From the IMG/VR virus record IMGVR_UViG_3300035180_000144, positions 1 to 41,462 of that record: 41,462 bases of DNA; one strand, written 5' to 3'. The first letter of the stretch is position 1, and each line of letters begins with the position of its first letter. The position numbers and the translations under genes are program-made. The DNA is from a virus. Below the pieces are notes generated by a model, which worked only from the letters and a program-made list of their open reading frames with translations, ran no database searches and was not told where the DNA came from. Of the stretch, positions 8,378 to 41,462 are shown one piece after another.

Positions 8378-8379
8378 TT

Positions 8380-9759: not shown

Positions 9760-9762
9760 GTC

Positions 9763-16290: not shown

Positions 16291-16299
16291 GGAGCCACC

Positions 16300-17259
16300 A
16301 TGAGCATGACCGTTGATACGCTGATTCAGAACCTGAGCACTCAGGCGAACGCATACAACAGCGCTGCGTACAACTACACGTATCAAGCGACTGAGCAGGT
16401 CAAAGGAGATGCGCAGTCTACGGACTCTCGGTTCGTGCCGTACATCGTCCCGAGCATAGCCAACCAGTTAGACACGACGATCCCACCTGAGTTGTACGGT
16501 GTGCCTACGACGCAGATCGTCGATGGTCTGCGGGCCGAGCTTGAGCTGTACTTCAATGAGTTCTTCCCTGATATCTCGACCCAGTACACCACGTGGATAG
16601 CCGAGATTGCCGACGCTGTATCAACTGGTGTGCCGCTGACGTTGGACAATGAGACGGCGAACAGGCAGGCCCAGGTGTTCGGTGAAGCTGAGGGCATTCG
16701 GATACAGCGCAAGCTACGTGCTGCTTGGGCAGGCAAGGGCTACACCCTCCCGCCCGGGGCGATGGTGGGTATGGTGCTGGACGAGTCAGACACGCGGACG
16801 GAGCAGCTGATCACAGGTGCGATCGGTAACGCGAATAAGGCCACAGATCAGGTGTTGTCTACCTACAAGATCGTCCTGGCTACAGCCCTTGCAACGTCGG
16901 ATGCTCGCGTAGCTGCTGTCAATGCCATGAGCGCACTGATAAAAACGGCTGCGGCGATCTACTCAACAGACGTTGACGCGAAGATCGCCATACTGAAAGC
17001 CCGTGCAGCTGCAGCGGACGCAGCGCTTGCGTATTACTCTGCCGAGTTGAAACTGGACTCGGTGAACACAGGTTTGTACAAGCAGAACGTACAACTTGCG
17101 GTTCAACGCTTCGAGAAAGACGGATCACTCTTCTTCAGGAATGAAGGGGCACAGGTGGAATCTGCTATCGCAGGAGCCGTAGAAGCCGGTAAAATCGCGC
17201 AAGCGGCGTTCTTGTCACTCAATACCATCGTCAGCGCATCGACTGCTGGGTTTGCATAA
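16300..17259 (+). CDS. Helical virion protein, paralogue B (319 aa)
   Basis: This is the second member of the tandem pair. It has TLIQNLSTQANAYNSAAYNY at the start, a YGVPTTQIVDGLRAELELYF helix matching the aromatic helix of paralogue A, an Ala-rich helix bundle (about residues 190-300), and the same Leu-Asn-x-Ile/Ser-rich ending with AGFA. The final dozen residues and overall plan are the clearest match; the middle has diverged strongly. AAGGAG lies 7 bp before the ATG. Both products may form a hetero-oligomer, for instance a component of the ejected DNA-delivery conduit, but this is an inference from position and helix content. Confidence 0.75.
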   Translation: MSMTVDTLIQNLSTQANAYNSAAYNYTYQATEQVKGDAQSTDSRFVPYIVPSIANQLDTTIPPELYGVPTTQIVDGLRAELELYFNEFFPDISTQYTTWIAEIADAVSTGVPLTLDNETANRQAQVFGEAEGIRIQRKLRAAWAGKGYTLPPGAMVGMVLDESDTRTEQLITGAIGNANKATDQVLSTYKIVLATALATSDARVAAVNAMSALIKTAAAIYSTDVDAKIAILKARAAAADAALAYYSAELKLDSVNTGLYKQNVQLAVQRFEKDGSLFFRNEGAQVESAIAGAVEAGKIAQAAFLSLNTIVSASTAGFA

Positions 17260-17270
17260 AGGAAATTGAC

Positions 17271-28726: not shown

Positions 28727-30547
28727 ATGGCCACCCCTAGCATTAAAAACAGAGTAGGTAACGCCGTCTCCGGCACACCCGGAACAGGCACGATCACGCT
28801 CGCTAGTGCTGAGACGGGCTATCAATCGTTCACTACAGCCTACGCAGCCGATGCCAACGTCGATATCCTGATTGAGGACGGTGATGCCTGGGAGATTGCG
28901 CTAGACTGCACCTACACACACAGCGACACTACAGTTACACGCGGCACGTTTGAGGCGAGTAGCACAGGATCGACGGTAAGTTTCACCAGTGCTGCGAAGG
29001 TTTATGTGATTTTTTCGGCGAACCGGCTGGCTGACCTCGTTGGCCGCATTTCGATCAACGCTATTGGAAACCCAGGACGACAAGGTTTCGGCGTTGGCAT
29101 CTGCCCCGCATTGCCCTCGGGTTTTGCTGCGATAGCTGGCAGCACCGATCCCGCGTCCGACAATTACGGCAACTACCAGTACAGCGACGGCTCTGTCATG
29201 TGCTGGATTCCGGCGTTCTATTACCGGACCAACGATGTGCGCAATCCGACCTATGCCGCGTACACGACAAACAGCATCGATGTGCAACCCTATAGCGTGT
29301 TCGTTGATGTCGCCACTGCCAACGCTGCCGGCTACGCGCTGCACCGTGCGTTCTACGATGGCGGGGCAATCCAGCCTGGTTTTTTCATCGACAAATACCA
29401 GGTCTCGAACAATGGCGGCGTGGCATCCAGCATCGCACTGGGCAACCCCCTCTCCATAAACGCCACGCTTCACAACCCGATCAGCGCGTTGAATGGCGCG
29501 CCGGTTGCCAATTACGGCGGTTGTTTTGCTGCCGCCAAAACGCGCGGCGCGCGTTTTTCCCCGGCCATGCGCTACCAGTACGCAGCACTAGCGCTGCTGT
29601 CGATGGCGCACGGTCAGTCGGCAACCAATAACGTGTGGTGTGCCTGGTACGATGCCGTCGGCGTAACCAATTATCCCAAGGGCTGCAACAACAATGCGCT
29701 GAAAGACCAGAACGACACCACCGTGGTGTATCAGTCGGACGGCTATAGCAACTGCGGAAAGACCGGTAGCGCCACCAACTTCGCCAAAACCACCCACAAC
29801 GGACAGAACTGCGGCGTGGCTGATCTCAATGGCAACATGTGGGAGGTGTCTCCCGGAATCACCTACGTTGCCGGTACAAAAGCCATAACCGGAATCACGC
29901 TCTCAAATCCGGTCGATCTACTAATCGTCGGCCACGGCAGGACGACCGGCGATATCGTACAGATCGAAAGCATCGTCGGCACGACGCAGCTAAACGACAA
30001 AATCTACAAGTGCACCGTGGTGGACGTTGATAACATCACGCTCGATGGAGTTGACGGTACGGGTATGACCGCGTACGCATCAGCGGGAACACTGACGTTT
30101 GGCACGTTCTACGCGCTCAACACTAGTTATGCCGCCAAAAACCTGACCGGCGGCAATACGCTCTCCACCGATCAATGGGGAGCCACCGGCGTGGCTGCGC
30201 ATAGCACACCCATCGTGCCCACGATCCGCACCGACTATTCACAAAACGGTTTCGATAAACGCTTTGGCAAATCAACCAATCAGGTGCTCAGCGCCGCCAC
30301 GTCAGGCGCTGGCTGGGTGCTAACCGGGTTAGGGATGCCGCTGAGCACGGGCATCTCCGATGGCACGTCCGGCAGCAACCTATTCGGCGCAGACTATTTT
30401 TATCAAAAAATTTTAAATGAGCTTTGTTTGCTCTCCAGCGCCAGCTGGAGCTACGGCTCGAGTGCCGGGGTCTGGGCCGCGAGCTGGAACAACACGCGGA
30501 CGGGCTCGAGCGATCGCGTGGGCTCGCGCGCCGCCAGTTACCTGTAG
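28727..30547 (+). CDS. Receptor-binding protein with C-type-lectin/FGE-like domain, candidate DGR target (606 aa)
   Basis: The N-terminal about 110 residues are a beta head (IKNRVGNAVSGTPGTGTITL, then VYVIFSANRLADLVGRI). From about residue 140 on, the sequence shows formylglycine-generating-enzyme/C-type-lectin features: FFIDKYQVSN, NGAPVANYGGCFAAAKTRGA, RFSPAMRYQYAALALLSMAH and ADLNGNMWEVSPGIT. An extra domain of about 80 residues (AITGITLSNPVDLLIVGHGR onward, residues about 386-463) is inserted before FYALNTSYAAKNLTGGN. The last about 37 residues (SASWSYGSSAGVWAASWNN, then TRTGSSDRVGSRAASYL) match the variable end of DGR-diversified phage receptor-binding proteins. It is probably the tail adhesin. 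No reverse transcriptase or template is in the window. Confidence 0.8.
   Translation: MATPSIKNRVGNAVSGTPGTGTITLASAETGYQSFTTAYAADANVDILIEDGDAWEIALDCTYTHSDTTVTRGTFEASSTGSTVSFTSAAKVYVIFSANRLADLVGRISINAIGNPGRQGFGVGICPALPSGFAAIAGSTDPASDNYGNYQYSDGSVMCWIPAFYYRTNDVRNPTYAAYTTNSIDVQPYSVFVDVATANAAGYALHRAFYDGGAIQPGFFIDKYQVSNNGGVASSIALGNPLSINATLHNPISALNGAPVANYGGCFAAAKTRGARFSPAMRYQYAALALLSMAHGQSATNNVWCAWYDAVGVTNYPKGCNNNALKDQNDTTVVYQSDGYSNCGKTGSATNFAKTTHNGQNCGVADLNGNMWEVSPGITYVAGTKAITGITLSNPVDLLIVGHGRTTGDIVQIESIVGTTQLNDKIYKCTVVDVDNITLDGVDGTGMTAYASAGTLTFGTFYALNTSYAAKNLTGGNTLSTDQWGATGVAAHSTPIVPTIRTDYSQNGFDKRFGKSTNQVLSAATSGAGWVLTGLGMPLSTGISDGTSGSNLFGADYFYQKILNELCLLSSASWSYGSSAGVWAASWNNTRTGSSDRVGSRAASYL
30437..30547 (+). 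other. Candidate DGR variable region (VR)
   Basis: These last 37 codons of the receptor-binding gene encode W-S-Y-G-S-S-A-G-V-W...W-N-N-T-R-T...V-G-S-R-A-A. Many codons are AGC, TAC, GGC, GAT or CGC at positions where related proteins have Asn, as expected if AAC/AAT codons of a template were altered at adenines. An unchanged AAC AAC pair remains at 30488-30493. GC-rich bases (30518-30535) near the stop could act as an initiation-of-homing-like element. I found no near-identical second copy in the window, so the template would lie elsewhere. Confidence 0.5.
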
Positions 30548-30706
30548 CGCGATCCAACCGAAAGCGTGACAGCGAGATGATCAGGCCAACCGCGATACAT
30601 CCGGGTGCGTGCGACGGACTGGTTGATGCCGTGGTTTCCAGACTCGGCTACGTCTGCCGCACCGCATAACTGCGCCATATGACCCGCCACCTCAAGGAGC
30701 ATCACC
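30548..30706 (+). other. 159-bp gap after the receptor-binding gene
   Basis: There is no convincing gene here. The sequence is GC-rich and holds a short frame beginning MIRPTAIHPGACDGL of about 30 codons, with no good ribosome-binding site. I see no template repeat of the variable region and no strong terminator. AAGGAG near the end is the ribosome-binding site of the next gene. Confidence 0.6.
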
Positions 30707-31141
30707 ATGCCCTCTATCATCAGCTACCAAAAAGCCTACGACGCGACCACCACTTACCAGCTCACGCTGCCTGATGGTGCCACGGAGTTGTGCGAAATTG
30801 CGGGTATGACGTATATCGTCCTGCCGGATGGTGCCATGCTGCCGCCTCAAGCCGAACAGATTGATGCCAGTGTATCCGTCGTCACGCTAGATGCCGCGCT
30901 GCGCACCGCGATCATCGCCGCCAGCCCGCACTGCGCGCTGATTGATGAGCGGATGCACACAAAAATCCGCGATGTCTACCAGCTCGAAGATGAACTGAAA
31001 TACGCCCGCATCGGCGTCGGTGCCGCCATGGGCATGTATCAGCCCACAGCAGATGAAGTGGCCGGCATGATTGCGTTTGGCACGCACGTCGAGACTGTCC
31101 GGCAGTGGGGACGAGACGAGCGGGCAAAGCTGGGGTTGTAA
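30707..31141 (+). CDS. Tail-fibre-associated hypothetical protein (144 aa)
   Basis: The protein has a beta-rich N-terminal half (TTYQLTLPDGATELCEIAGM, then YIVLPDGAMLPPQAEQI) and a helical C-terminal half with DAALRTAIIAASPHCALIDE, then MHTKIRDVYQLEDELKYARI and ending VETVRQWGRDERAKLGL. The pattern I-x-A-A-S-P-H-x-x-L-I...RY-x-x-x-D-E...W-G-R-x-E-R/K-A-K-L-G-L is found in small genes beside fibre or receptor-binding genes in other phages. Such proteins may help fibre assembly. AAGGAG lies 10 bp upstream of ATG. It is not similar to the accessory protein of known DGRs as far as I can tell. Confidence 0.7.
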   Translation: MPSIISYQKAYDATTTYQLTLPDGATELCEIAGMTYIVLPDGAMLPPQAEQIDASVSVVTLDAALRTAIIAASPHCALIDERMHTKIRDVYQLEDELKYARIGVGAAMGMYQPTADEVAGMIAFGTHVETVRQWGRDERAKLGL

Positions 31142-31142
31142 G

Positions 31143-31679
31143 ATGATCATCGGCGCAAGCGCAGTCGGTAAATGGGCGGTTGGTAAAGCGCCGGTTTCTG
31201 CTGTTACCGTTGGCGGCGCGGCATTATCTTTTGCGCTATCCTTATCAACTGGCACTGCTACAGGTGCCTCTAGCGTATTGGGTTCATCCCTTACTCAGTC
31301 CCTTTCAGTCACACCTGGCGCTGCTTCCGGTGCTGCAAATATACCCGGTACGTCTCTCAGTCAATCTCTGGGTCTTTCCGCTGGCACTGCTACAGGTGCT
31401 GCGAGCGTAGCGGGTACGTCTCTCAGTCAAGCGCTATCAGTTCAATATGGCACTGCTACAGGTGCCGCATTAATTGACGGCATAAGCCTCACCGAGTCAA
31501 TTTCGCTGATGGCGGGATCGGCCTCGATATTTACCCTGTCGCCGGGTGATATTGCGGCCATCGCGCATCAGCTTGGCACCAGAACGTACGTCCTCGACAA
31601 ACAAGGCCGCGTAATCGTTGTTCAGACAGACGATGAAATAGTCTCGCTTGACGAGGGTTCGGAGGTTGTGTATGCCTAG
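31143..31679 (+). CDS. Repeat-containing virion protein (178 aa)
   Basis: The start at 31143 follows the previous stop by 1 bp. The N-terminus (IIGASAVGKWAVGKAPVSAV) is followed by four tandem 22-residue repeats (residues 37-124) of the type GTATGAASVAGTSLSQALSV, and then a soluble end (DIAAIAHQLGTRTYVLDKQG and VVQTDDEIVSLDEGSEVVYA). The repeats are Gly, Ala, Ser and Thr-rich with alternating hydrophobics, as in a beta-solenoid or fibre shaft. It sits in the tail-fibre cassette and may form a short fibre or collar. There is no recognised enzyme motif. Confidence 0.7.
   Translation: MIIGASAVGKWAVGKAPVSAVTVGGAALSFALSLSTGTATGASSVLGSSLTQSLSVTPGAASGAANIPGTSLSQSLGLSAGTATGAASVAGTSLSQALSVQYGTATGAALIDGISLTESISLMAGSASIFTLSPGDIAAIAHQLGTRTYVLDKQGRVIVVQTDDEIVSLDEGSEVVYA
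31251..31514 (+). repeat. Four tandem 66-bp repeats
   Basis: Units start at 31251, 31317, 31383 and 31449, each 66 bp (22 codons). GGCACTGCTACAGGTGC is identical in units 1, 3 and 4, and unit 2 carries GGCGCTGCTTCCGGTGC. The sequence GGTACGTCTCTCAGTCAA is shared by units 2 and 3. The copies keep the reading frame, so their number can change without breaking the protein. Confidence 0.9.
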
Positions 31680-31720
31680 AGTATTTGCTGTAGAATTCCA
31701 CAAAGGCTGATGGAGCAGTG

Positions 31721-32497
31721 ATGACCCCGAAGAAACAAGACATCGAGATACTGCAAGGCAAGAGTTTTGAGCTACCCGTAAAGTGGGAGGTCGAACCTAT
31801 TGTTTACAAGGCGATCACTGGGATTACCCAGGCGGCACCTTGTGTCGTCACCTGCACCACGCACGGGGTGCCTGACGGCTGGCGCGTAGCTATTGTGTCA
31901 GTCAAAGGGATGACCCAGATCAACGCAAGTAACCCACCGAAAGACAGCGAGTATGTCGTGGCTACGAAACTGGATACAGACAGTATTGAGCTGAACACTG
32001 TCAACGCAGCTGGGTACAAACCTTATACCAGTGGTGGCTACGTTCAGTACAACACCCCGAAAGACCTAGCGAACTACACGGCACGAATGAGCATCAAAGA
32101 CAAGCTCAGTACACCTACGGCCATGCTCTGGGTTGCGTCCACCGTGTATCCCGAAGGTTACTACGTGTTGACTTCTACGGGGATTGTGCTCAGGGCAACG
32201 ATCGGTGGTACATCAGGTATGACCGAGCCGACAGCGGCGGGTGTTGACAACACCGTGACATGGGAAGAAGTCACATCGTTTTCAGGTAGCCGTGAGCTAA
32301 TGTCACTCACCACAGCGAATCTCCGTATCATCCTCGACAACACAACGAAGACGATCAAGCTAGACATCGACGCAGCTGACACTGCGGCGATTACGTGGAA
32401 AAAAGGGTTATATGATCTTGAGCTTGAATCCCCCGGTGGAGTAGTTACTGCTCTGCTGTATGGCTCTGTAACCGTAACACGTGAAATCACTACCTAA
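31721..32497 (+). CDS. Virion protein with FCCH-like domain (258 aa)
   Basis: ATG 31721 is preferred because GGAG (31712-31715) is 5 bp away; GTG 31718 would be too close. The N-terminal part (QDIEILQGKSFELPVKWEVE) is a beta sandwich start found in phage tail proteins. Residues about 31-110 (AITGITQAAPCVVTCTTHGV, then VAIVSVKGMTQIN and LDTDSIELNTVNAAGYKPYT) form an FCCH-like domain, also present as an insertion in the 28727 gene. The C-terminal part (TARMSIKDKLSTPTAMLWVA, then GLYDLELESPGGVVTALLYG) resembles tail-associated beta proteins. It probably belongs to the fibre or collar set. Confidence 0.7.
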   Translation: MTPKKQDIEILQGKSFELPVKWEVEPIVYKAITGITQAAPCVVTCTTHGVPDGWRVAIVSVKGMTQINASNPPKDSEYVVATKLDTDSIELNTVNAAGYKPYTSGGYVQYNTPKDLANYTARMSIKDKLSTPTAMLWVASTVYPEGYYVLTSTGIVLRATIGGTSGMTEPTAAGVDNTVTWEEVTSFSGSRELMSLTTANLRIILDNTTKTIKLDIDAADTAAITWKKGLYDLELESPGGVVTALLYGSVTVTREITT

Positions 32498-32509
32498 AGG
32501 TAGCCAATC

Positions 32510-32944
32510 ATGGCAGGCAAGTCAGACTATCTCGAAAATTTGGTGTTGGACCTGATCTTCAAGGCCACTACAAACGCAACCTTTGCCAGCGCTGCAGGCA
32601 CTGCCGCCAACCTCTACGTAACGCTGCATTCCGCTGATCCGTATGCGTCAAACGAAACGGGCACACAGTCTACTTCGGAAATCGCCTATACTAGCTACGC
32701 GCGCGTGGCCGTTGCCCGTTCCGCTGGTGGTTGGACTCGTACGGGCAACTCAATCAGCCCTGCTGCGAACATTGACTTCCCGCAGTGTACTGGCGGTACC
32801 GCAACAGCTACTCACTTCTCCATTGGCGAGTTGGCTTCCGGTACAGGTGCGCTGTTGTACGCAGGTGCGATCAGCCCGACCATCTCGATCAGCAACGGCG
32901 TGATCCCCCGTCTCACGACTGCTTCGACCGTCACTGAAGACTAA
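32510..32944 (+). CDS. Tail-fibre-like virion protein, paralogue of the 8902 gene (144 aa)
   Basis: This protein opens with DYLENLVLDLIFKATTNATF, has YVTLHSADPYASNETG and then a strand region including ATHFSIGELASGTGALLYAG. The order and the LHSADP and THFSIGE motifs match the 8902 protein, so both belong to the same Gp80-like family. They lie 23 kb apart at the two ends of the virion gene block. The Shine-Dalgarno is weak (AAAGGTAG). Its stop codon overlaps that of the convergent primase gene. Confidence 0.7.
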   Translation: MAGKSDYLENLVLDLIFKATTNATFASAAGTAANLYVTLHSADPYASNETGTQSTSEIAYTSYARVAVARSAGGWTRTGNSISPAANIDFPQCTGGTATATHFSIGELASGTGALLYAGAISPTISISNGVIPRLTTASTVTED

Positions 32945-35910
32945 GCTGGATTAATCAGGCTGACCGGCTCCATACGGGGCTTGTCAGGTAGCTTCGCGCT
33001 GGTAATGGGTACGATCTTGGGCCCGATAGATTTGATCCGCTCCAGTTCGGGCTCACTACCCGCGAACGCCTCGGCATTGGTGTCGATCAGAATGCACTTG
33101 ACCTGACCTGTCTTGAACTCTGTGCCTGCACCCAGTGTCTTCAGTATGTTCTTGTTGGTCACAATCTTCTTCTCGTACAGCTCGTTCACCGTGTCCTGGT
33201 ACACCCGGCCATTCTTGACGCACCACGCCTTGAATAATCCAGACGCAATCCAGACCTGACCTGAAACGCGATCGTAGCGTCCGATAACCGCGCGCCTTGG
33301 AGGCTCTACCAGCGTGGTGTTCGCGCCCCTTGACTCAGGTACCCACTCGTCTACCACGATGATGCCCTGGACGAACTGGTTGAGGTACTCAGCTGCAGCC
33401 TCGGGAGCTGTCTGTGTCGTCTCTACCGCGCGTTCACGCATGTTCCTGATCTGGGTCACGATGTAGTCAAACAGCGGCTTCGCAGACATGGTGTGCAGGC
33501 CACACAGCTTGGCAACCATGAACCCTGCAATGTTGGTAGCTGCCAGGGCAGACCACACGCGTTCTTCGGCGGTGACTTGCAGCAGGTAATCCAGACGCTT
33601 CATGACCTTGTGCAGCAGCGCCTCTACCTGCGCCCGGTTCTGTGTGATGAACTCTATGTAGACGCGTCCGGCATGACCGTAGTTCCGGCGCATGGGCATC
33701 TCGAACTTCCGCTCGAAGTCATTCTTGTTGTAGACCGTTGTTGACGGCACACGCAGCTCCAGCACCCGGTACGCCTTGGCGGCAGCACCCTCGACGTTGG
33801 CGAGCTTCTCGTTGATGGACGAGTTCGAGCTGGACAACATGGAGAGGCACCAGTCAGAGAACGCAGCCAGCAGCTTCCGGTCTGCCGTCAACACAACCTT
33901 CGGCTTACCGTGCGAGATGCTGTAGACCAACGCACCTAAGGCGTCAGGAGGCATGTCTGTAATCTCTTCAGCACACACCGGCAGGTTGCCCATCGTGGCT
34001 ACGAGGCTGATCTTCGCATTGTAGGTACTGCCCTTGCTATCCGCAGGGATCATGAGTTCGAGCGGATGGCCCCACACTGAGTTGACCAGTCGCTGAACAG
34101 TGGACTTGCCCTCACCCGATCTACCCAGTAGGTTGATCACACCCCCAGCGATACCTGTAAAGGCCATCAACGGCGCACCGAACGCGGTAGCGAACGCGAA
34201 TTGGTGGCAGAGGAACTTCGGGTGGTTGTACATGTTGACGATGCGCTTCCACTCATCCAGCGTACCATCCGTGCGGATTGCCTTGGCAACCATGTTCTCT
34301 TTCTCTATATCGCATCGATATGCCCCGGTCGGGGTGTACAGGGTTTCGCCCAGTACGAACTCGGTGTTGTTCTCACGCCAGCCGAGCCGGGAGAAGAGCT
34401 TGTCCCGCTGCGCGTGCTTTTGTAGCTCTTGGATGTAAGCGACCATGTAATTCCTCACGTGATCAAGGCAGTCGTTGGTGACGTACACGCCTGCGTTTGT
34501 AAGATTGGCTGTGAACTGCTTCTTGTCGTACATGTCTGCTGACGGCATGACGATCGTGTGGGTTCCTTCCAGCGGCATGACCACCTTCCACATCACGTGC
34601 TCACGGTTCTGCGACTCGTAGTACACCCGCTTGAGGGGGAACATGTCGTAGTCGAGGATGGGCTTGTCGTACTTGTCGCCGTCTTTCTTGGTGGTACTGA
34701 CGAATACTCTGCCTGCAGACCGCACAAAGGGGTACGGCGCGTCGGGGATGGTTACTGCCAGGGTAGTTCCGTCATCCTGCTCTACTTCGGTCTGTGGCGG
34801 CGGGGAGGCTACGACTGTTGACTCTCTGCCGAGGACGATGGGTGACTTGATGCTCCCCCGGTACTGGCACTCGTCACAGTCTGACGTGTGTTCCCCGATC
34901 GTGGTGCAGAGGGAGGGGCCGACGTTGTTGCGCTCGAACCTGTCGAGCACTTGGTCGGTGTAGTCCTTGCTGTAGTTGGGGCTGTTCTTCGACAGCTCGT
35001 GGTAGTGCTCCCGCCCGTTCTCAGCGTGCCGGACAACCTGACCCACATGCCACCAATGGTTGTAGGGTACATCGCCACCTGCATCCACCACGGTCTTGAT
35101 CGCTGCGCACTTGAGTAGCAGCTCAAACTTTGCCGGCGGGCCGTCGTACGTTGTCTGGACGTTACCCTCACCTCCGAAGTCGAGGTAGTCAGGTAGGTCA
35201 GACTTTGCAGGCAGTGCAACACCCATCTCGGTCGCCACGAGGTTCAAGGATGCAGCCAGTGCATCAGGCGAGTACGCCACCGAGGCTTTGACCAGCTCTA
35301 CCGGCTGTGGGTTGTCAGCCAGCTTGTAGTTGTGGGTTCCGACAACGCGGTAGACGCGGTTCATGTCGATGGCACCGGGGTCGAGCTTGAAGCCTGTGGC
35401 CTTGGCGACCTGCTTGAGCTGCTTGGCAACCGGAGCGAAGGTACTGGTGGGTACGGCGCGATCGAGGGGGAAATAGATGTGGAAGCCAAACCCGCTACTG
35501 ACGACTGTGGGCTGGGGCCAGCCGATGATCTTGGTAAACTCTTTCAGTGCTGCGATAGCGTCTTGGCGCGTTGGGTATGTCTTGGCTTTCTTGAGGTCGG
35601 TTAGGGTATCCCACTCACCCGGTTTGGCGATGTCCATCTCGAAGAAGAACACCTGTAACTGATTGAGGTTGCTTGTTGTTCTGTAGTGCGTTCGGCCATC
35701 GCCGTCAACGACCTTCTGTTCTTTGAGTGTTGACATGCAGTAGTAGACGTTGATTCCCTGGGAGTCGAGGGACATGGCGGCGGTGGCCGCTGCATCTATG
35801 GTATCGAAGATGTGGTGCTTGTAACCTCCTAAGTTCTTGTTTACTGGTATTGCTATGCAGTAGTACCCGGTATCGGGCCAGACGAAACGCAAGAAGCTGC
35901 TGGCGATCAT
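32941..35910 (-). CDS. Primase-helicase: AEP primase domain plus DUF927-like ATPase (989 aa)
   Basis: The N-terminal third is an archaeo-eukaryotic-type primase: FFFEMDIAKP (acidic pair E91 and D93), SGFGFHIYF (residues 139-147) and DMNRVYRVVGTHN (residues 182-194). A Cys-rich segment (CTTIGEHTSDCDECQYRG, about residue 340) resembles a zinc-binding linker. The C-terminal part has a DUF927-like ATPase with Walker A GRSGEGKST (residues 596-604) and acidic VCAEEITDMP about 50 residues later as Walker B. It would prime and unwind DNA at the replication fork. It reads toward the virion genes and its stop overlaps the last + strand gene. It follows an intrinsic terminator, so it may have its own promoter. 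Confidence 0.9.
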   Translation of the reverse strand: MIASSFLRFVWPDTGYYCIAIPVNKNLGGYKHHIFDTIDAAATAAMSLDSQGINVYYCMSTLKEQKVVDGDGRTHYRTTSNLNQLQVFFFEMDIAKPGEWDTLTDLKKAKTYPTRQDAIAALKEFTKIIGWPQPTVVSSGFGFHIYFPLDRAVPTSTFAPVAKQLKQVAKATGFKLDPGAIDMNRVYRVVGTHNYKLADNPQPVELVKASVAYSPDALAASLNLVATEMGVALPAKSDLPDYLDFGGEGNVQTTYDGPPAKFELLLKCAAIKTVVDAGGDVPYNHWWHVGQVVRHAENGREHYHELSKNSPNYSKDYTDQVLDRFERNNVGPSLCTTIGEHTSDCDECQYRGSIKSPIVLGRESTVVASPPPQTEVEQDDGTTLAVTIPDAPYPFVRSAGRVFVSTTKKDGDKYDKPILDYDMFPLKRVYYESQNREHVMWKVVMPLEGTHTIVMPSADMYDKKQFTANLTNAGVYVTNDCLDHVRNYMVAYIQELQKHAQRDKLFSRLGWRENNTEFVLGETLYTPTGAYRCDIEKENMVAKAIRTDGTLDEWKRIVNMYNHPKFLCHQFAFATAFGAPLMAFTGIAGGVINLLGRSGEGKSTVQRLVNSVWGHPLELMIPADSKGSTYNAKISLVATMGNLPVCAEEITDMPPDALGALVYSISHGKPKVVLTADRKLLAAFSDWCLSMLSSSNSSINEKLANVEGAAAKAYRVLELRVPSTTVYNKNDFERKFEMPMRRNYGHAGRVYIEFITQNRAQVEALLHKVMKRLDYLLQVTAEERVWSALAATNIAGFMVAKLCGLHTMSAKPLFDYIVTQIRNMRERAVETTQTAPEAAAEYLNQFVQGIIVVDEWVPESRGANTTLVEPPRRAVIGRYDRVSGQVWIASGLFKAWCVKNGRVYQDTVNELYEKKIVTNKNILKTLGAGTEFKTGQVKCILIDTNAEAFAGSEPELERIKSIGPKIVPITSAKLPDKPRMEPVSLINPA

Positions 35911-35953
35911 AGAGGATGCCTTTCAGGTGGGGGATTTCGCGGCGGGATTTTGT

Positions 35954-35983
35954 AGTGTAGCCCCGCTCTTCTAGGTCTAGCAA
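35954..35983 (-). promoter_or_regulatory. Weak candidate promoter for the primase gene
   Basis: On the - strand TTGCTA (35978-35983) and TACACT (35954-35959) are 18 bp apart and each match sigma70 boxes at 4 of 6 bases. The pair lies between the terminator at 35991-36014 and the primase start at 35910. It is only suggestive; a phage-specific promoter is equally possible. Confidence 0.25.
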
Positions 35984-35990
35984 GGAAGAA

Positions 35991-36014
35991 GAGTCAGGGG
36001 TTCGCCCCTGACTC
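35991..36014 (-). terminator. Intrinsic terminator after the ssDNA-binding protein gene
   Basis: GAGTCAGGGG and CCCCTGACTC form a perfect 10-bp stem with a 4-nt loop. On the - strand the stem is followed by TTCTTCCTT, a T-rich tail, and it lies 25 bp after the stop of the upstream gene at 36039. It should end or reduce transcription before the primase gene. Confidence 0.85.
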
Positions 36015-36038
36015 TATGTGATACGGCGTGGTTCTTGC

Positions 36039-37046
36039 TTACGCGTCCCACTCGTCCATCAACGATGCCAGCTTGCTCCCGATTGATTCAGAAGGGGATG
36101 GCGCAGCAGGCTCGGGTGCGGCAGCTGCCGCTATAGCCGTCACGGGCGCAGCGGGGGTAGGTGCAGACTTCGCGGGCTTTGCCGGCTTTGGGGCGACCGG
36201 AGGAGCGATGGTAGCCTGTGCCGGGGGTGCGACATTCTCGAACAGCTCCTGAACTGCACCACCGGTAGCCTCGTGCTCCTTCGCTTCCAGCAACGCTTTG
36301 ACCTTCTCGCTGTTCCACACGTCCTTGATCTGCATGGCTTCTTCTCGCGTCAGGAAACGGTCGGGCTTGAACAGCAGCTTCGGGTACTCCGTAGCCGAGT
36401 CGAACTTGACCATCGTAATGATCGCAGCCGTGTGCTTGGCACCGCGAGAAGCAATGAATTCAAGGTACTGCTGCCATGCGTACCAGTTCTGGCTCTCGTT
36501 TTCAGCATTGTCCTTATCCCAGGCTGAGGTCGGTGCCAGACGCATCAGCAACGGCTCAAAGTCAAGCTTGGATGCCGGTACGACAGCCAGACGACGCTGC
36601 ATGGTGCAGGCGGTGATCGCCTTGCCGCTGGCTTCGCTGATCTTGGAGCCCTTCTGGGACATCGGGCAGCTGGCACAGGTAGAGGACTGTGGCTCAGCGA
36701 CAGACGCATCAGGTTGCTCGCCGTCCAGAGAGAAGCAGGCAGGGCCGGTCACATTCTCGGGGTTGTACTTTCCCGGGTAGTACGATCGAGCCGCGCGCTT
36801 GCCTGTGTTCAGGACGACCAGCTTCACCAGAGCGACCGGCTCAGGCTCGTTGGTATCGGGGTTATTACGCATCATGACAGTCTCGTCACCGTCGAGGATG
36901 ATACGGAACTTTCCGCCCTTGACCGACAGCTGTGGAATGGACGCTTTCTGGGGGATGTTGGTCTCGGCACCGAAGATGTCAGCGAAGTAGTTGGGGATAG
37001 CGACTGCAGTGCTGCCGCCGAAGGGGATGAGTTGTTGTGTGGTCAT
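36039..37046 (-). CDS. Probable ssDNA-binding protein (335 aa)
   Basis: The protein has a globular N-terminal part (about residues 1-240), then an Ala/Pro/Lys-rich linker and an acidic tail ending SLMDEWDA. A linker plus acidic end is the hallmark of ssDNA-binding proteins, where the tail recruits partners. Four cysteines (C104, C124, C127, C147; CASCPMSQKGS pattern) could bind zinc. The order beside a primase-helicase and recombination genes supports the call. GGAGA is upstream of ATG. It has no OB-fold signature that I can name by eye, so the function is an inference from architecture and neighbours. Confidence 0.65.
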   Translation of the reverse strand: MTTQQLIPFGGSTAVAIPNYFADIFGAETNIPQKASIPQLSVKGGKFRIILDGDETVMMRNNPDTNEPEPVALVKLVVLNTGKRAARSYYPGKYNPENVTGPACFSLDGEQPDASVAEPQSSTCASCPMSQKGSKISEASGKAITACTMQRRLAVVPASKLDFEPLLMRLAPTSAWDKDNAENESQNWYAWQQYLEFIASRGAKHTAAIITMVKFDSATEYPKLLFKPDRFLTREEAMQIKDVWNSEKVKALLEAKEHEATGGAVQELFENVAPPAQATIAPPVAPKPAKPAKSAPTPAAPVTAIAAAAAPEPAAPSPSESIGSKLASLMDEWDA

Positions 37047-37058
37047 TTGATTCTCCAG

Positions 37059-37460
37059 TTAAACGGGTGACTTGCGGATTTTCATGATTTGCTGCGAGAA
37101 GGTATTGACCCCAGGCGGGATCGCACCCTCGTGCTCGTCCATGTACTTCTTGATCTCAGTTGACTTGATTCTCCTTTCAAGCATATCTAGCGCGTCGTTC
37201 TCCTTCATCCAGTTGTAAAACACACCCCAGTCTGAGCCAGAGCATTGCAAATCCACGTCGATGTAGGTCGTACCTACACCTGCTACCTTGAACCCGGTAA
37301 CGCCATCTTCATGCGCCTTGGCAAGCAGGGCATTGTTGATCAGGTCAAGCTGTTCTTTCAACGCAGCATCATGTTTCTTGTGCTCAGAACTAGCCGCCGC
37401 CCTTGCGTCACGTATCTTGATGTACGTGGCTACGAGCCGGTCAACCGTTACGTCAGTCAT
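37059..37460 (-). CDS. Hypothetical 133-aa protein upstream of the ssDNA-binding gene
   Basis: The N-terminal part is a coiled helix (YIKIRDARAAASSEHKKHDA, then LKEQLDLINNALLAKAHEDG), followed by VTGFKVAGVGTTYIDVDLQC, a strand pair, and a helical end (WMKENDALDMLERRIKS) with PPGVNTFSQQIMKIRKSPV. This pattern (helix hairpin plus beta pair plus PPGV) recurs in phage genes next to ssDNA-binding or recombination proteins. AAAGGAG precedes ATG at good distance. No catalytic motif. Probably an accessory DNA-metabolism protein; exact role unknown. Confidence 0.7.
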   Translation of the reverse strand: MTDVTVDRLVATYIKIRDARAAASSEHKKHDAALKEQLDLINNALLAKAHEDGVTGFKVAGVGTTYIDVDLQCSGSDWGVFYNWMKENDALDMLERRIKSTEIKKYMDEHEGAIPPGVNTFSQQIMKIRKSPV

Positions 37461-37472
37461 CTCAAACTCCTT

Positions 37473-37712
37473 TCAGTGTTTTACAGCGGTCCGCGACTCG
37501 TGTGTCGCTATGTAGTAGTTGCGTACTTCAGTAGCTATTTTAGCGAATGCGCCAATAATAGCAAACCCTGTTTCTTCGTCATAAAATGCTACGTTACGTA
37601 TGAACGTCAGCGCTGCGCTTGTGGCAACTGTCAGGTTTTCTGAGGCTACATCATCCAGAAGGCGATACAACCCTTCGAGCATCGCACCTTCTTCTTCAGT
37701 AAAGTCGTTCAT
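37473..37712 (-). CDS. Hypothetical small acidic protein (79 aa)
   Basis: This helical protein starts MNDFTEEEGAMLEGLYRLLD and contains TVATSAALTFIRNVAFYDEE and GFAIIGAFAKIATEVRNYYI. There are no cysteines or known motifs. Its ATG overlaps the helicase stop (ATGA), so it is translated with the helicase message. It could be a regulator or partner of the helicase, but this is speculation. Confidence 0.65.
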   Translation of the reverse strand: MNDFTEEEGAMLEGLYRLLDDVASENLTVATSAALTFIRNVAFYDEETGFAIIGAFAKIATEVRNYYIATHESRTAVKH

Positions 37713-39292
37713 TTCACACCACCTTTCTCAAGCTCGTTATTATACAGGCTAAGGATGCTTTCCTGCCCTTGTTTGCGACTATCTACCAGATTGTATATGT
37801 TCCACTCAAGATTAACAGCACCTATTTGCACGATAGTCATGTTGCGTGTCTGTCCGGGGCGGTTGATGCGCTCGACTACCTGGCCTGCTTCGTCGTTGCT
37901 GTAGATCGGTGCGTAGAAGATCATCGTGTCAGCTTCAGTCAACGTCAGGCCATGCGACATGACCTTCGGGTGGCAGAGCAGCACGTGGGGATCAGCCGAT
38001 TCCTTGAACGCGCCGATGATTTCGTTGCGCTTCTTGACCGACACGTCACCGTTCAGCACGGCGCAGCTGTAGTGCTTGCTGACCTCCTTCTCCAGAGCAT
38101 ATGTGATCCCCTTAAACGGTACGATGACGATGACCTTGGCACCCGCTTCTTCAATACACTCCAGCAGCAGCTCAAGACGTGGCTTGAAGTCGAGCGTGAT
38201 GTACTCGCCGGTCTCAGTATTTTTGACCGAGCCGGCCAATATTTGTCTGAGCTTATTGATCTTGTCCGCCGCGTTGACGGCTGTGATCGTGTTTGTCTTG
38301 GCCTCGGTCTCCATCAACGTGTGCATCTGCTTGTACATGTCCTTCTGCTCGGTGCTGAGGTTGCAGTCGCGCTTCTGCCACATCATCGGAGGGAGGTCGA
38401 GACAGTCTTCCTTCCTAAACCTGATACCCGGCTGCATGGCGTCGTACGCGATCTTGTACCCCTCAACCTTCGGCACCCACTTGAACTGGGTCGCTTGGTT
38501 CATGGTCAACCGTTGGAAGGAGCCAAAATACTCGGGCACACCGCCAGGGTTAACCAGCTTTGCCATCGCCCATGCGTCTGTTGGGGCGTTCGGGCAGGGT
38601 GTGCCGGTCATCAGCCAGAGTCGCATCCAAGGCTGTAACATCTTCTTGAACGTCTTGTAGCGACCTGTACTGGCGTTGCGGTAGCCGTTGCTGGCCTCGT
38701 CCACGATGATCAGGTTGATGTCCTTCCGCTTGGCTACCTCGTCAGCGATGATCTTGAGACCGTCGAAGTTGATGACCGCGAACTCCCAGTCAGTAGCCAG
38801 CAGTTCTAGCCTCCTGGCCCTGGAGCCATGCAGCACTACAGCCGTGCGGTGCATCAGTACCTGAAACACCTCGTTCCGCCATACACGTTCGAGCGTGGAC
38901 AGCGGAGAGACAATCAGTACCCGCTTGACGACCTTCTCGTGCATCAGGTAGTCCGCCGCCCACAACGCACTGGCCGACTTGCCAAGGCCCATCGTGTTCA
39001 GACAGAACGCGCGGTAGTGCTGCGACAGGAACGCCGCTGTCGTCTTCTGGTGCTCGAACGGTGTGAACCGTCCAGGCCACTTGTAATAGCTCAACATGGG
39101 TGCAGGGATGTCAGCGCCAATGTTCTTCAGCAGCTTGGTTTCTTCGATGCCGTGGTACACAGCCAGATTGTGGCCGTTTGCCTGCGCGGATACTTCGGGT
39201 GACAGCAGCCGTGATCGGGGTATCAGGGATAGCACTGACTCAGGGTTACGATGCTTCAGCAGCACCGTGTGCTTTTCGGGGATGAGGATCAC
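37709..39292 (-). CDS. SNF2-like DEAD/H-box helicase (527 aa)
   Basis: The protein has motif-like FTPFEHQ (residues 76-82), Walker A MGLGKS (101-106), DEAS (198-201) as the DEAH-type box, and LMTGTPCPN as motif III. The second lobe shows VLLCHPKVMSHGLTLTEADT and ERINRPGQTRN as motifs V and VI. These are the order and spacing of SNF2-family ATPases, which translocate on duplex DNA; in phages such genes occur in replication and recombination modules. The start GTG at 39292 overlaps the previous stop (GTGA), with GGAGG upstream. It might remodel replication intermediates or dislodge host proteins. The specific role is not shown. Confidence 0.9.
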   Translation of the reverse strand: MILIPEKHTVLLKHRNPESVLSLIPRSRLLSPEVSAQANGHNLAVYHGIEETKLLKNIGADIPAPMLSYYKWPGRFTPFEHQKTTAAFLSQHYRAFCLNTMGLGKSASALWAADYLMHEKVVKRVLIVSPLSTLERVWRNEVFQVLMHRTAVVLHGSRARRLELLATDWEFAVINFDGLKIIADEVAKRKDINLIIVDEASNGYRNASTGRYKTFKKMLQPWMRLWLMTGTPCPNAPTDAWAMAKLVNPGGVPEYFGSFQRLTMNQATQFKWVPKVEGYKIAYDAMQPGIRFRKEDCLDLPPMMWQKRDCNLSTEQKDMYKQMHTLMETEAKTNTITAVNAADKINKLRQILAGSVKNTETGEYITLDFKPRLELLLECIEEAGAKVIVIVPFKGITYALEKEVSKHYSCAVLNGDVSVKKRNEIIGAFKESADPHVLLCHPKVMSHGLTLTEADTMIFYAPIYSNDEAGQVVERINRPGQTRNMTIVQIGAVNLEWNIYNLVDSRKQGQESILSLYNNELEKGGVK

Positions 39293-39588
39293 AGAACCTC
39301 CAAGTCTTGTACGTCTTCCAGGTTCGTCTCGTTCACCACCATAAACACACCCCCGTGTGTCTGGACGTTCATCCCAAAACGCAGTTGCATCGTTGTTGCT
39401 GAGTTCCTACCGAACTTAGTTTCTATGGCGAAGAACTTCCCGCGATGCACACCGATGAAGTCTGAAATACCTGTGCGTCCAAACGCCCCTGATGGTGGCA
39501 TGAAGTAGAACGCTCCGATGCGGTCAAGGATGCGCTTTACTTCTCGTTTGACATCTGCTTCTGAAGCGAATACATTCGCTTTACTCAC
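39289..39588 (-). CDS. VRR-NUC domain nuclease (99 aa)
   Basis: The protein is a minimal VRR-NUC (PD-(D/E)XK) nuclease. It has a helical start (EADVKREVKRILDRIGAFYF), then GRTGISDFIGVHRGKFFAIE with D43, E56 and K58 as the active-site set, and a C-terminal strand-helix (GVFMVVNETNLEDVQDL). In phages it commonly sits beside SNF2-like helicase genes. The start is GTG at 39588 with GGGAGG about 8 bp away. It probably acts as a structure-specific or nicking nuclease together with the helicase, which starts within its stop codon (GTGA). The family assignment is firm; the substrate is not known. Confidence 0.9.
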   Translation of the reverse strand: MSKANVFASEADVKREVKRILDRIGAFYFMPPSGAFGRTGISDFIGVHRGKFFAIETKFGRNSATTMQLRFGMNVQTHGGVFMVVNETNLEDVQDLEVL

Positions 39589-39618
39589 TGGCTTTCCCTC
39601 CCTTTCAACAGTGGGTTT

Positions 39619-39654
39619 GACCCCCTTGTGCTCACTCCGAGGGGGTCTCTTTTT
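39619..39654 (+). terminator. Stem-loop with T-run, oriented on the + strand
   Basis: GACCCCC (39619-39625) pairs with GGGGGTC (39641-39647), and TCTTTTT follows on the + strand. All genes here are on the - strand, where no T-run follows the stem. It may be a terminator of antisense transcription, or a hairpin that protects the upstream message. It fills most of the 67-bp gap between two nuclease genes. Confidence 0.55.
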
Positions 39655-39655
39655 G

Positions 39656-40318
39656 CTAACTACGTTTCGGTTTCCAGAACTGGCACGATGTCACCGGACA
39701 CCAGCCGAAACATAGTCCTGACTGCTTCGCTAACCAGATGTCTTGTTCGAACGAATACTCGTAGCGTTTCAGGTCAGCAGCGTAGCTGTCCCACAGCATG
39801 GGCGCTTCATTACGTGTGTGGTGTCCGACTGTCATCGTATCGTTTTGTAACCAGTAGAACACCGTCCGACAGATGTTGACTTCGGGGAAGTTCGCAAACA
39901 CCAGCAACGAGTTGAGCATCAGCTGTGCCGATGGCTTCACCTTCCCGCTCTTGTGGTCGAGGATGAACGCCTTATCTCCACGCACGATAAGCACGTCGAT
40001 GATGCCCCGAGACCATACCTCGTCGTCCCGGAAGCCGCAAGGTTTCAAGTCGCGCGTCACACCCAGCTCGTGCTCGACGTACCGGGTGCCTGTGAACCGG
40101 CTGAGCTGATCGACGTAGTGCTGGTACATCGACAACTCGGCAGGCAGTTGTGAGCCGGTCTTCAACCCCTCTTCGAACGCCTCATGCAACCGCGTGCCCC
40201 AGGCCGCAGCTTCACCCGCTGTTTCTACAACATCTTTGGCTACCTTCGTGTGGTAATACTGCTTCGGGCAGGTCCTGAACTTCTCAATCGTGGAGTGTGA
40301 CCAGGGTAGAGGCTTCAT
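39656..40318 (-). CDS. Cas4-like PD-(D/E)XK nuclease with four cluster-type cysteines (220 aa)
   Basis: The start at 40318 (MKPLPWSHSTIEKFRTCPK) overlaps the previous stop (ATGA), and a longer upstream frame lacks support. Active-site candidates are H45, D108 (SRGIIDVL), D121 and K123 (ILDHKSGK), the RecB-like set. C17 in RTCPKQYY and C203, C207 and C212 in the C-terminal CFGWC-PVTS-C segment recall the four cysteines that hold an Fe-S cluster in Cas4 and AddB-type nucleases. It likely degrades DNA ends during recombination or host-DNA breakdown. The family is confident; the Fe-S cluster is inferred. Confidence 0.87.
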   Translation of the reverse strand: MKPLPWSHSTIEKFRTCPKQYYHTKVAKDVVETAGEAAAWGTRLHEAFEEGLKTGSQLPAELSMYQHYVDQLSRFTGTRYVEHELGVTRDLKPCGFRDDEVWSRGIIDVLIVRGDKAFILDHKSGKVKPSAQLMLNSLLVFANFPEVNICRTVFYWLQNDTMTVGHHTRNEAPMLWDSYAADLKRYEYSFEQDIWLAKQSGLCFGWCPVTSCQFWKPKRS

Positions 40319-40863
40319 TTGATTGCTAACTTCTGCATGATGTACTGCAGGTGGCGGGCTTGGCTCATGGCATCGTGCATGGCGTTGTGATGCGTACCTA
40401 GGCGTTCGATCTTTACGTCGGGGGCGAAGCTCTTCATTGTGCGGTAGCACTTGTCGTCCCAGTACGCCCACGGGCGTTCCATGCCGCACGCAGTGTACGC
40501 GTTGCTCAGGATCACATTGTCGAACGTGGCACCGTTACCCCAGACCGGCAGGGACTCCTTGCCAAACCACTTGGAGAACTCTTCCAGCGCTTCAGGCAGG
40601 CTCATGCGCTTGGCCTCAACCTGATACTGCTGCGACTCTTTGCTCTGGGCCAGCCACCACATGACGGTGCTGGTATCCATCGACAGCCCGTGCATGGCAC
40701 ACGAAGCGGGGTCCACATACACATGGAAGGTCTCGTAGGGGGGGTCTTCTTCGGGGACGATGCTGGGGGCTTGCATGGGGTCAAACTTGACCGCACCGAT
40801 CGACAAGATGGATGCGTAGCTGTTCTTGCCCAGGGTCTCAAGGTCGATCATTACGTTGTTCAT
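40315..40863 (-). CDS. DnaQ-like 3'-5' exonuclease (182 aa)
   Basis: The protein begins MNNVMIDLETLG with D7 and E9 of motif I. WGNGATFDNVIL places D115 in motif II, and HHNAMHDA gives H159 and D164 of the DEDDh motif III. These four acidic residues plus the histidine define an RNase T/DnaQ-type exonuclease. It resembles stand-alone phage exonucleases of the DexA kind. AAAGGA precedes ATG. It overlaps the next gene by ATGA and the previous HNH-like gene by ATGA, so it is part of one tightly coupled nuclease block. Confidence 0.9.
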   Translation of the reverse strand: MNNVMIDLETLGKNSYASILSIGAVKFDPMQAPSIVPEEDPPYETFHVYVDPASCAMHGLSMDTSTVMWWLAQSKESQQYQVEAKRMSLPEALEEFSKWFGKESLPVWGNGATFDNVILSNAYTACGMERPWAYWDDKCYRTMKSFAPDVKIERLGTHHNAMHDAMSQARHLQYIMQKLAIK

Positions 40864-41162
40864 TTGCTTTCCTTTCGAGGAGTCTGGCTCTTCATCGAGC
40901 CATCTGGGTTACGAGCGAACGAACGATTCGCGCTCGGGGTTGCTGCCCGGTAGTTGCTCGGGTCGTTACTGCCGCCTTTGCTGAGCGGTTTCTTGTGATC
41001 CAGGTCTTGCCCCTTCTTGACCATACCCAGCTTAAGCGCCTTACGCCTTGCGCGTTTGCGTTTAGCGTTGGGACTGTCACTGCCCTGGGCAACCTCGCCT
41101 CGGGCCTTCTGGGTGGCGTACTCCTGGCCGTAGTTACGAACGTAGTTGGGGCTGGATGGCAT
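40860..41162 (-). CDS. HNH-like small nuclease (100 aa)
   Basis: The basic N-terminal half (SPNAKRKRARRKALKLGMVK) is followed by QDLDHKKPLSKGGSNDPSN with D55, H56 and N70, and RAATPSANRSFAR with N79. This is the DH...L...GG...N...N pattern of HNH endonucleases without the two zinc-binding CxxC pairs. Such minimal forms occur in phages, sometimes near packaging genes or as homing nucleases. It overlaps the exonuclease start by ATGA. It could nick DNA during replication; activity is not shown by sequence alone. Confidence 0.75.
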   Translation of the reverse strand: MPSSPNYVRNYGQEYATQKARGEVAQGSDSPNAKRKRARRKALKLGMVKKGQDLDHKKPLSKGGSNDPSNYRAATPSANRSFARNPDGSMKSQTPRKESK

Positions 41163-41193
41163 AGTAGTCTCTTCCGAAGTGGGTGTTTAGAGC

Positions 41194-41379
41194 CTAGATT
41201 GTAGTCTCTCCCACGCGATCCCAACACTCCTTACCACTCTGTCTTGCGGCTGCCAGATCGGGGTACTTGTCCACAGCGGATTCCATGCGGGCAACCAGCT
41301 CGGCTAGCAGGTACACCGGGTCCAACGTGTGCCACGCTCTGAGCAGTTCGTTGTTGGTCAGGTGGGCGTACTTAGTCAT
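41194..41379 (-). CDS. Hypothetical 61-aa protein
   Basis: The start ATG at 41379 has a near-perfect AGGAGG Shine-Dalgarno at a 6-bp spacer; a TTG two codons earlier is unlikely. The product is helical (TKYAHLTNNELLRAWHTLDP, then LLAELVARMESAVDKYPDLA) and ends ARQSGKECWDRVGETTI. I recognise no family. It overlaps the stop of the cut gene at the window edge and precedes the HNH-like gene, so it is in the same - strand operon. Confidence 0.7.
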   Translation of the reverse strand: MTKYAHLTNNELLRAWHTLDPVYLLAELVARMESAVDKYPDLAAARQSGKECWDRVGETTI

Positions 41380-41462
41380 CTTCAACCTCCTTCACGAGTG
41401 TGTACTGCAGCTTCTCCATCTTCTCGTCGGACAGCTCTTCTTCCCACTGCGCCCCGCTCGGA
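41372..41462 (-). CDS. C-terminal end of a small protein (cut at window edge)
   Basis: Reading from the right edge on the - strand, a frame ends at TAA (41372-41374) and overlaps the next ATG. The visible 29 residues (PSGAQWEEELSDEKMEKLQY, then TLVKEVEDD) are acidic and helical, as in small phage proteins. The frame is open to the window edge, the Shine-Dalgarno of the next gene lies within it, and overlap with the downstream start is typical for this operon. Function unknown. Confidence 0.6.
   Translation of the reverse strand, partial: PSGAQWEEELSDEKMEKLQYTLVKEVEDD

Follow-up and report, generated by a model that had tools for sequence, protein, structure and literature searches.

The virus record IMGVR_UViG_3300035180_000144 of IMG/VR (41,462 bases, all of it referred to here as the window) carries near one end, on the minus strand, four consecutive nuclease-like open reading frames (ORFs) and an SNF2-family gene. 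This block is probably the central part of a tailed-phage operon for replication and recombination, reaching from ORF63 to a primase-helicase gene, in which the nucleases and the SNF2 translocase would carry out joint recombination work. The observations are of gene content, of residues and of a gene order that is conserved in relatives. Recombination is the best-supported reading because relatives have these genes between a family-A DNA polymerase gene and genes for a primase and a protein resembling single-stranded DNA-binding proteins (SSB), and because the residues of the VRR-NUC protein match those of junction-resolving VRR-Nucs. The original prediction had described four nucleases followed by an SNF2 helicase, and the ORFs and family matches agree with it, weakly in the case of the HNH-like protein. 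The features are given in the order of transcription:

41194-41385, minus strand: ORF63, the ORF before the block, function unknown.
40860-41162, minus strand: HNH-like small basic protein of 100 amino acids (phrog_4590, weak PF01844, alignments, weak model).
40315-40863, minus strand: DnaQ-like, Rv2179c-like DEDDh 3'-5' exonuclease of 182 amino acids (PF16473, phrog_255).
39656-40318, minus strand: Cas4-like PD-(D/E)XK nuclease of 220 amino acids with a four-Cys pattern of the Fe-S type (PF12705, alignment, 8d3l).
39589-39655, minus strand: 67-nucleotide gap with a short inverted repeat, the sole non-overlapping junction among the five block genes.
39289-39588, minus strand: VRR-NUC protein of 99 amino acids, predicted four-way-junction resolvase (phrog_93, profile, residues).
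37709-39292, minus strand: SNF2-family ATPase and DNA translocase of 527 amino acids (PF00176, PF00271, 1z63).
37473-37712, minus strand: ORF79, function unknown, overlapping SNF2 by 4 nucleotides.
37059-37460, minus strand: ORF133, a DUF7307 protein (Pam3 gp33-like; PF23984, E=2.3e-6) that follows SNF2 in relatives.
36039-37046, minus strand: ORF335, predicted Cys4 OB-fold ssDNA-binding protein with an acidic C-terminal tail (phrog_27714, alignment, model).
32941-35910, minus strand: primase-helicase (DUF927, with PriCT-2 just under the cut-off; PF06048, PF08707, phrog_25314, phrog_8841).

Relatives were collected by scans of viral contigs for SNF2 (80 loci, the best 80 of 157 confirmed), for the Cas4-like protein (61 loci) and for DEDDh (7 loci); Pseudomonas phage Rollin (L082), Rhizobium phage RHph_TM3_14A (L083), Xanthomonas phage Xp15 (L084) and Acinetobacter phage Effie were added, together with the one relative that a host search via bacterial genome contigs returned, a 6.5-kb contig from an uncultured beta-proteobacterial bin. 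The order Cas4-SNF2-DUF7307-ORF335-primase on one strand was found in 129 of the 129 metagenomic loci that contain three or more of these genes (a count over 141 SNF2-found and Cas4-found loci, from which 12 with fewer than three genes were excluded and to which the named phages do not belong). Among the 84 SNF2-found and named loci, where the contig left room, 48 of 49 have the Cas4-like gene no more than 3.5 kb upstream of SNF2 (it is farther away in Rollin), and SNF2 is followed by DUF7307 in 63/63, by ORF335 in 47/47 and by the primase in 36/38, the two exceptions being Xp15 and Effie. The Cas4-found set, which shares no exact 60-mer with the SNF2-found set (sampled every 7 bases), gave a similar picture: 49 of its 61 loci have at least 2.5 kb downstream, and SNF2 is there in all 49 and the HNH-like gene in 48. 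At 70% identity the SNF2 proteins of the first set and the named phages form 14 clusters besides that of the window, two of which are large (38 and 26 loci), so the locus counts lack independence. Counted by cluster, all five genes stood in this order in 10 of 13 (not in Rollin, Xp15 and Effie). The conserved core order exceeds chance, though the loci are not all independent.

A survey of relatives for conserved order, as had been proposed, thus bears out the core (Cas4-HNH-SNF2 is widespread) and fails for two members, since VRR-NUC changes place and DEDDh was in no relative seen within 600 bp of the Cas4-like gene; the four-nuclease set as listed was found only in the window phage. Cas4-like and DnaQ-like genes had both been called less usual in such a block. 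From their distribution in relatives, the Cas4-like gene is a usual member and the DnaQ-like gene the odd one. These movements also bear on an unlikely explanation, namely that the block is merely a co-transcribed early gene cluster whose products do separate jobs and whose order reflects common regulation or shared descent rather than physical cooperation. It would account for VRR-NUC, HNH-like and DEDDh genes that move or are missing between relatives, for Xp15 and Effie, where Cas4, SNF2, DUF7307 and SSB stand together and the primase profile was not found downstream, and for the relatedness of the loci within the two large clusters. It is harder to reconcile with an order that persists although the SNF2 proteins of the clusters are only 31-55% identical to that of the window, and with the HNH-like and SNF2 genes overlapping by 4 nucleotides in 49 of 73 loci.

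Within the window, the prediction that most junctions overlap by four bases holds for three of the four inside the block (HNH/DnaQ, 40860-40863; DnaQ/Cas4, 40315-40318; VRR/SNF2, 39289-39292), the exception being Cas4/VRR with its 67-nucleotide gap and no overlap; SNF2 and ORF79 also overlap by 4 nucleotides (37709-37712). The range 39289-41162 that had been given for the whole block ends at the SNF2 start and has to be extended, as SNF2 runs 39292-37709. The inverted repeat in the Cas4/VRR gap was considered as a terminator hairpin and rejected, given that the coding strand has no T-run and that its fold energy is no better than that of shuffled sequences (z -1.24).

The VRR-NUC protein of the window gave no Pfam match at 0.1 when searched alone and matched phrog_93 (E=2.7e-8). 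A profile of its family ranked VRR-Nuc structures first in the PDB (4qbo, 8.8e-8; 4qbn, 9.4e-5), followed by RecU (about 0.001) and more weakly by Hjc, with unrelated chance matches among and below these rows; the Pfam VRR_NUC model on five relatives was below the cut-off in two and absent in three. E10, D43, E56, K58 and Q68 are invariant in 28 of 28 aligned sequences, and the D...ExK...Q pattern (spacing 8-11 allowed) is present in 44 of 44 distinct complete sequences. The protein thus combines profile similarity with the catalytic E...D...E-x-K of the VRR-NUC family and its Gln ten residues past the Lys. Pennell et al. (PMC4103454) report that VRR-Nucs of the stand-alone type form dimers and cut four-way junctions, and that in them the Gln is bonded to the catalytic Lys (K47, Q57), a bond not found in archaeal resolvases. 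The window protein is accordingly named as a predicted four-way-junction resolvase. Assignment to Hjc was considered, as two relatives match Pfam Hjc weakly and an Hjc-like resolvase has been described from a phage (PMC8805305), and rejected on the Gln after the Lys and the PDB ranking. VRR-NUC was found in 23 of the 33 records searched whole; it starts within 700 nucleotides before SNF2 in 5 of 76 loci and lies between Cas4 and SNF2 in 2 of 49 Cas4-found loci. In Xp15 the 5' portion of the annotated helicase gene gp42 shares sequence with an unannotated VRR-NUC ORF (9652-10005), and the annotation has probably placed the gp42 start upstream of the true one.

Host-DNA breakdown feeding nucleotides to phage synthesis, one of the roles first proposed, would explain several nuclease families within one operon; we regard it as very improbable, since in relatives the block genes adjoin polymerase, SSB-like and primase genes and the solved structures that best match the VRR profile are those of VRR-Nucs and junction resolvases. 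SNF2 translocases are not known to be needed for bulk DNA degradation, which also counts against it.

The Cas4-like protein matches PF12705 above the cut-off (E=3.5e-11). Its longest ORF begins at 40489, but the ATG at 40318 agrees with the family alignment. C17, C203, C207, C212, D108, D121 and K123 are invariant in 24 aligned sequences, the four-Cys pattern is present in 102 of 102 distinct complete sequences, and the profile found the Cas4 structure 8d3l as its best match in the PDB (E=4.7e-6); the PD-(D/E)XK core with four conserved Cys places it in the Cas4-like pfam12705 branch. In Rollin, the Cas4-like gene (7081-8826) is interrupted immediately behind the D-x-K catalytic motif by an intein-like insert of the LAGLIDADG type. 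Inteins and like elements tend to sit in essential sites. The same tendency has been described in mycobacteriophages, whose Cas4/RecB-like nucleases carry inteins in the PD-(D/E)XK motif (PMC5050341).

The SNF2 protein has Pfam matches above the cut-off, to an SNF2 N-terminal domain (PF00176, E=8e-21) and a Helicase_C domain (PF00271, E=4.5e-12), and its best solved relative is 1z63, described as 'helicase of the snf2/rad54 family' (E=4.2e-25). Two relatives have SNF2 genes with inteins from about residue 190 (L117, 1090-3504; L137, 2320-4734), for which splicing models scored above the cut-off; the unusually long SNF2 genes of L112 and L125 and polymerases of L116 and L146 gave no intein match. 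The SNF2 inteins, together with the Rollin insert, were counted in favour of the recombination reading.

A search against PADLOC bears on counter-defence, also among the roles first proposed: the Cas4-like protein could provoke uptake of self-spacers, or the nuclease-SNF2 set could block a host system. For Campylobacter phages, Cas4-like proteins have been hypothesised to activate host-spacer uptake as a decoy (PMC4283603), and these proteins are detectable relatives of the window protein (26-28% identity, E down to 3e-10). PADLOC matches were obtained only for SNF2 and DEDDh, and were of the superfamily kind: SNF2 resembles the ZorD and DpdE helicases (best 1.3e-32), with the match confined to the helicase part of these larger proteins, and the Cas4-like, HNH-like, VRR-NUC and ORF335 proteins had no match. 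As the gene setting is moreover that of a replication operon, counter-defence seems a far-fetched role for this block. The idea of a coordinated machine is best supported for recombination, through the neighbouring replication genes and the VRR-NUC residues, and gained no support for either of the other two roles.

The HNH-like protein often accompanies SNF2, its gene starting within 700 nucleotides upstream of SNF2 in 67 of 76 SNF2-found and named loci. It is very basic (isoelectric point 10.6), and its best PHROG is phrog_4590 (E=3.2e-16), to which no function is assigned. Its PF01844 score (E=0.0058, 17.2 bits) lies under the curated cut-off of 21.4, and it is therefore named HNH-like rather than a member of the HNH family. 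A PDB sequence search up to E 1 gave no match. The model predicted by AlphaFold is weak (pLDDT 67.8), and none of its 36 Foldseek matches is significant (best E 0.86); 29 of these we take, by their titles, to be HNH or bba-Me nucleases. In the VIA structural comparison it reached Z 2.8 with the HNH nicking enzyme 4h9d, and Z 3.0 with a higher-ranked entry that has no HNH label (6itw). A divergent HNH fold is moderately supported. An HNH motif consists of a metal ligand, Asp or His, before the catalytic His, and a terminal Asn or His; the window copy has Asp55-His56 and Asn79. Among 131 family members (96 distinct), anchored by a search pattern that itself required the upstream Asp and the His found in all of them, the ligand position preceding the His is A in 68, S in 38, D in 23, N in 1 and H in 1 (50, 26, 18, 1 and 1 among the distinct sequences). 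Ala or Ser thus occupies it in 76 of 96 distinct sequences, where the window has Asp, and the terminal Asn pattern is kept in 128 of the 129 members in which the pattern matched. On a tree of 48 SNF2 representatives, 37 of which have a scorable HNH-like protein, the state with or without ligand changes at least five times, by a quick method with long branches flagged and no shuffled control.

With Asp at the ligand position, the window copy may cleave DNA; with Ala or Ser there in most relatives, the protein may elsewhere be a non-cleaving partner of SNF2. A wider proposal, which we put forward tentatively, concerns a large group of phages, most of them uncultured, whose replication operon would encode the SNF2 translocase together with a dedicated, small and very basic HNH-derived partner. 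In most lineages this partner would have lost its first metal ligand (Ala/Ser) and kept the upstream Asp and the His, with the terminal Asn retained in nearly all cases, and it might serve as a non-cleaving DNA-binding clamp or targeting subunit. SNF2 remodelling would thereby be a core part of a replication machine of the polymerase-A/Cas4 type, and window-like phages would have kept or regained the cleaving form. In RHph_TM3_14A a relative of the window HNH-like gene (19018-19299) lies on the opposite strand, away from SNF2, and the annotated HNH gp61 matches a different family (HNH_3).

The DEDDh protein matches PF16473 above the cut-off (E=8.1e-47, 159.6 bits, spanning 1-177 of 177) and phrog_255 (E=4.7e-52), and the D-x-E and H-x4-D residues of Rv2179c-like enzymes can be read in its sequence. 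DEDDh is not core to the block and is its odd member: it was within 600 bp of Cas4 in none of the 138 Cas4-bearing relative loci, and in the 7 loci found with DEDDh a search at E 1e-4 gave none of the other block genes. In relatives that have it, the DEDDh gene can be part of the same operon in other slots, as indicated by its contacts with the polymerase gene, which it overlaps by 4 nucleotides in L116 and into whose longest ORF it reaches in L146. The proofreading domain PF01612 is absent in all four DEDDh records and present in 20 of the 29 others, and DnaQ was therefore considered as a replacement proofreader. This was rejected: the D-x-E exonuclease motif is present in 7 of 7 polymerases read, five from DEDDh carriers (among the named phages, L002, L116 and L146) and also in L083, which lacks DEDDh, and L116 has both DEDDh and PF01612; in the Rollin polymerase the second exonuclease motif was not matched by the pattern. 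The apparent complementarity was an artefact of profile sensitivity.

Downstream of SNF2, ORF335 matches phrog_27714 (E=4.9e-26). Its invariant C104, C124, C127 and C147 form a Cys4 pattern found in 89 of 90 family members, and 80 of 90 have the acidic tail. Its model had no significant Foldseek match, and its VIA matches include OB-fold ssDNA-binding proteins (BRCA2, 5.8; Teb1, 4.0; RPA, 3.8; Cdc13/Stn1, 3.4; Rim1, 3.0), although Z below 8 may reflect merely a common arrangement. ORF335 is predicted to be a Cys4 OB-fold ssDNA-binding protein. Homology with phiC31 gp3 was rejected (hhalign probability 0.1, profile without a match) and gp3 is kept as a lead only; gp3 also has three Cys in one stretch, and the available portion of a paper on it (PMC5814800) gives nothing on an OB fold. 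In a 12-protein search, phiC31 gp7 scored 10.9 bits with the HNH profile and gp1 8.6 bits with the Cas4 profile, both marginal matches. The primase-helicase matches PF06048 (E=2.7e-30), phrog_25314 and phrog_8841, with PF08707 at 21.5 bits against a cut-off of 22. Its homologue in RHph_TM3_14A (14402-17485) is annotated as 'putative integrase protein'. A family-A polymerase was detected in 29 of the 33 records, 27 of them above the cut-off, and its gene ends no more than 1.5 kb before Cas4 in 23/45 SNF2-found, 33/39 Cas4-found and 3/4 named eligible loci; in most of the remaining ones the gene lies at a greater distance upstream or runs into the longest Cas4 ORF, and none was found in L008, L014 and L149. 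The family-A polymerase of the window phage is probably located beyond the contig end.

From the protein families, the activities, physical association and flow of substrate can be pictured as follows. The Cas4-like Fe-S nuclease would trim DNA ends to single strands, which the Cys4 OB-fold protein (ORF335) would coat. The SNF2 translocase would move along duplex DNA and remodel or branch-migrate joint molecules, and a VRR-NUC dimer would cut the four-way junctions formed in this way, turning branched concatemers into linear DNA that can be packaged. The HNH-like protein, with its D-H...N site in the window phage, might nick or bind branched DNA together with SNF2, and the DEDDh enzyme would be an optional 3'-5' trimming exonuclease.

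Several points weigh against this recombination scheme. No recombinase or annealing protein was identified in the block, and the proposed cooperation is drawn from sequence and gene order. DEDDh was detected in only 4 of the 33 records, and its PF16473 family is named for an exoribonuclease; VRR-NUC was not found in 10 of them, several of which are short fragments. The HNH-like site is degenerate in most relatives. The ORF335 model is of medium confidence (pLDDT 68.7), with the phiC31 recombination directionality factor gp3 as its top VIA match (Z 8.0, root-mean-square deviation 4.4, 153 aligned). Lastly, the contig gave no family-A polymerase match, and the window ends just past the block.

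Recombination modules of the T4 and T7 style comprise a resection nuclease, an SSB, a branch-migration helicase and a resolvase; the window block would offer the same set of jobs, SNF2 and VRR-NUC replacing UvsW and gp49 or gp3, and no homologous membership is claimed. VRR-NUC beside an SNF2-like helicase, which the original prediction had called a known phage pairing, is indeed already annotated, for example in Paenibacillus phages. The stand-alone VRR-Nucs stNUC (Streptococcus equi phage P9), saNUC and psNUC resemble the window protein as small single-domain proteins with E, D and E-x-K, and K47/Q57 have the same ten-residue spacing as K58/Q68 (PMC4103454), whereas the window protein is distant from them in sequence (profile E 8.8e-8), and its activity and dimerisation are predicted. 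Phage Cas4-like nucleases are likewise known (PMC5704561), and those of the pfam12705 type in the Campylobacter CP220 group and RHph_TM3_14A share with the window protein the PD-(D/E)XK domain, the conserved Cys and a free-standing, phage-borne gene (PMC5704561). The gene of the window protein precedes those for SNF2, DUF7307, the SSB-like protein and the primase in an order that is conserved; the Campylobacter relatives were compared at the protein level. RHph_TM3_14A, Rollin, Xp15 and Effie have family-A polymerase, Cas4-like, VRR-NUC, SNF2, DUF7307 and SSB-like genes on one strand, a set like that of the window, and Rollin and RHph_TM3_14A also share its primase-helicase; they differ in that DEDDh is elsewhere or was not found and the HNH-like profile was not found near SNF2, and Rollin differs further by the insert in its Cas4-like gene.

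No published description of the Cas4-HNH-SNF2-DUF7307-SSB-primase arrangement was found in titles and openings of abstracts, where a passing mention in a full text would escape notice. The arrangement defines an order-conserved set in which Cas4-like, SNF2 and VRR-NUC proteins most likely serve phage replication and recombination, and not defence or CRISPR adaptation. It also proposes a candidate SSB role for PHROG 27714, to which no function is assigned so far, and draws attention to a recurrent HNH-like partner of SNF2 (PHROG 4590) that may be non-catalytic.

The plus strand of the window carries capsid, adaptor, tail-like and endolysin genes. A search of 50,697 phage records gave no near DNA match for positions 30000-41462, ORF63 had no match in Pfam and PHROG searches, ORF79 has no relative among loci L001-L085, and tRNA and promoter scans added nothing. 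A 606-amino-acid protein (28727-30547) has a Trp/Ser-rich C-terminus that resembles target proteins of diversity-generating retroelements, for which the contig gave no reverse transcriptase match. An 89-nucleotide repeat in three overlapping copies at 66-nucleotide spacing (31249-31469) lies within the ORF 31071-31679, and an ORF of 2235 amino acids (18845-25552) is located among the structural genes.

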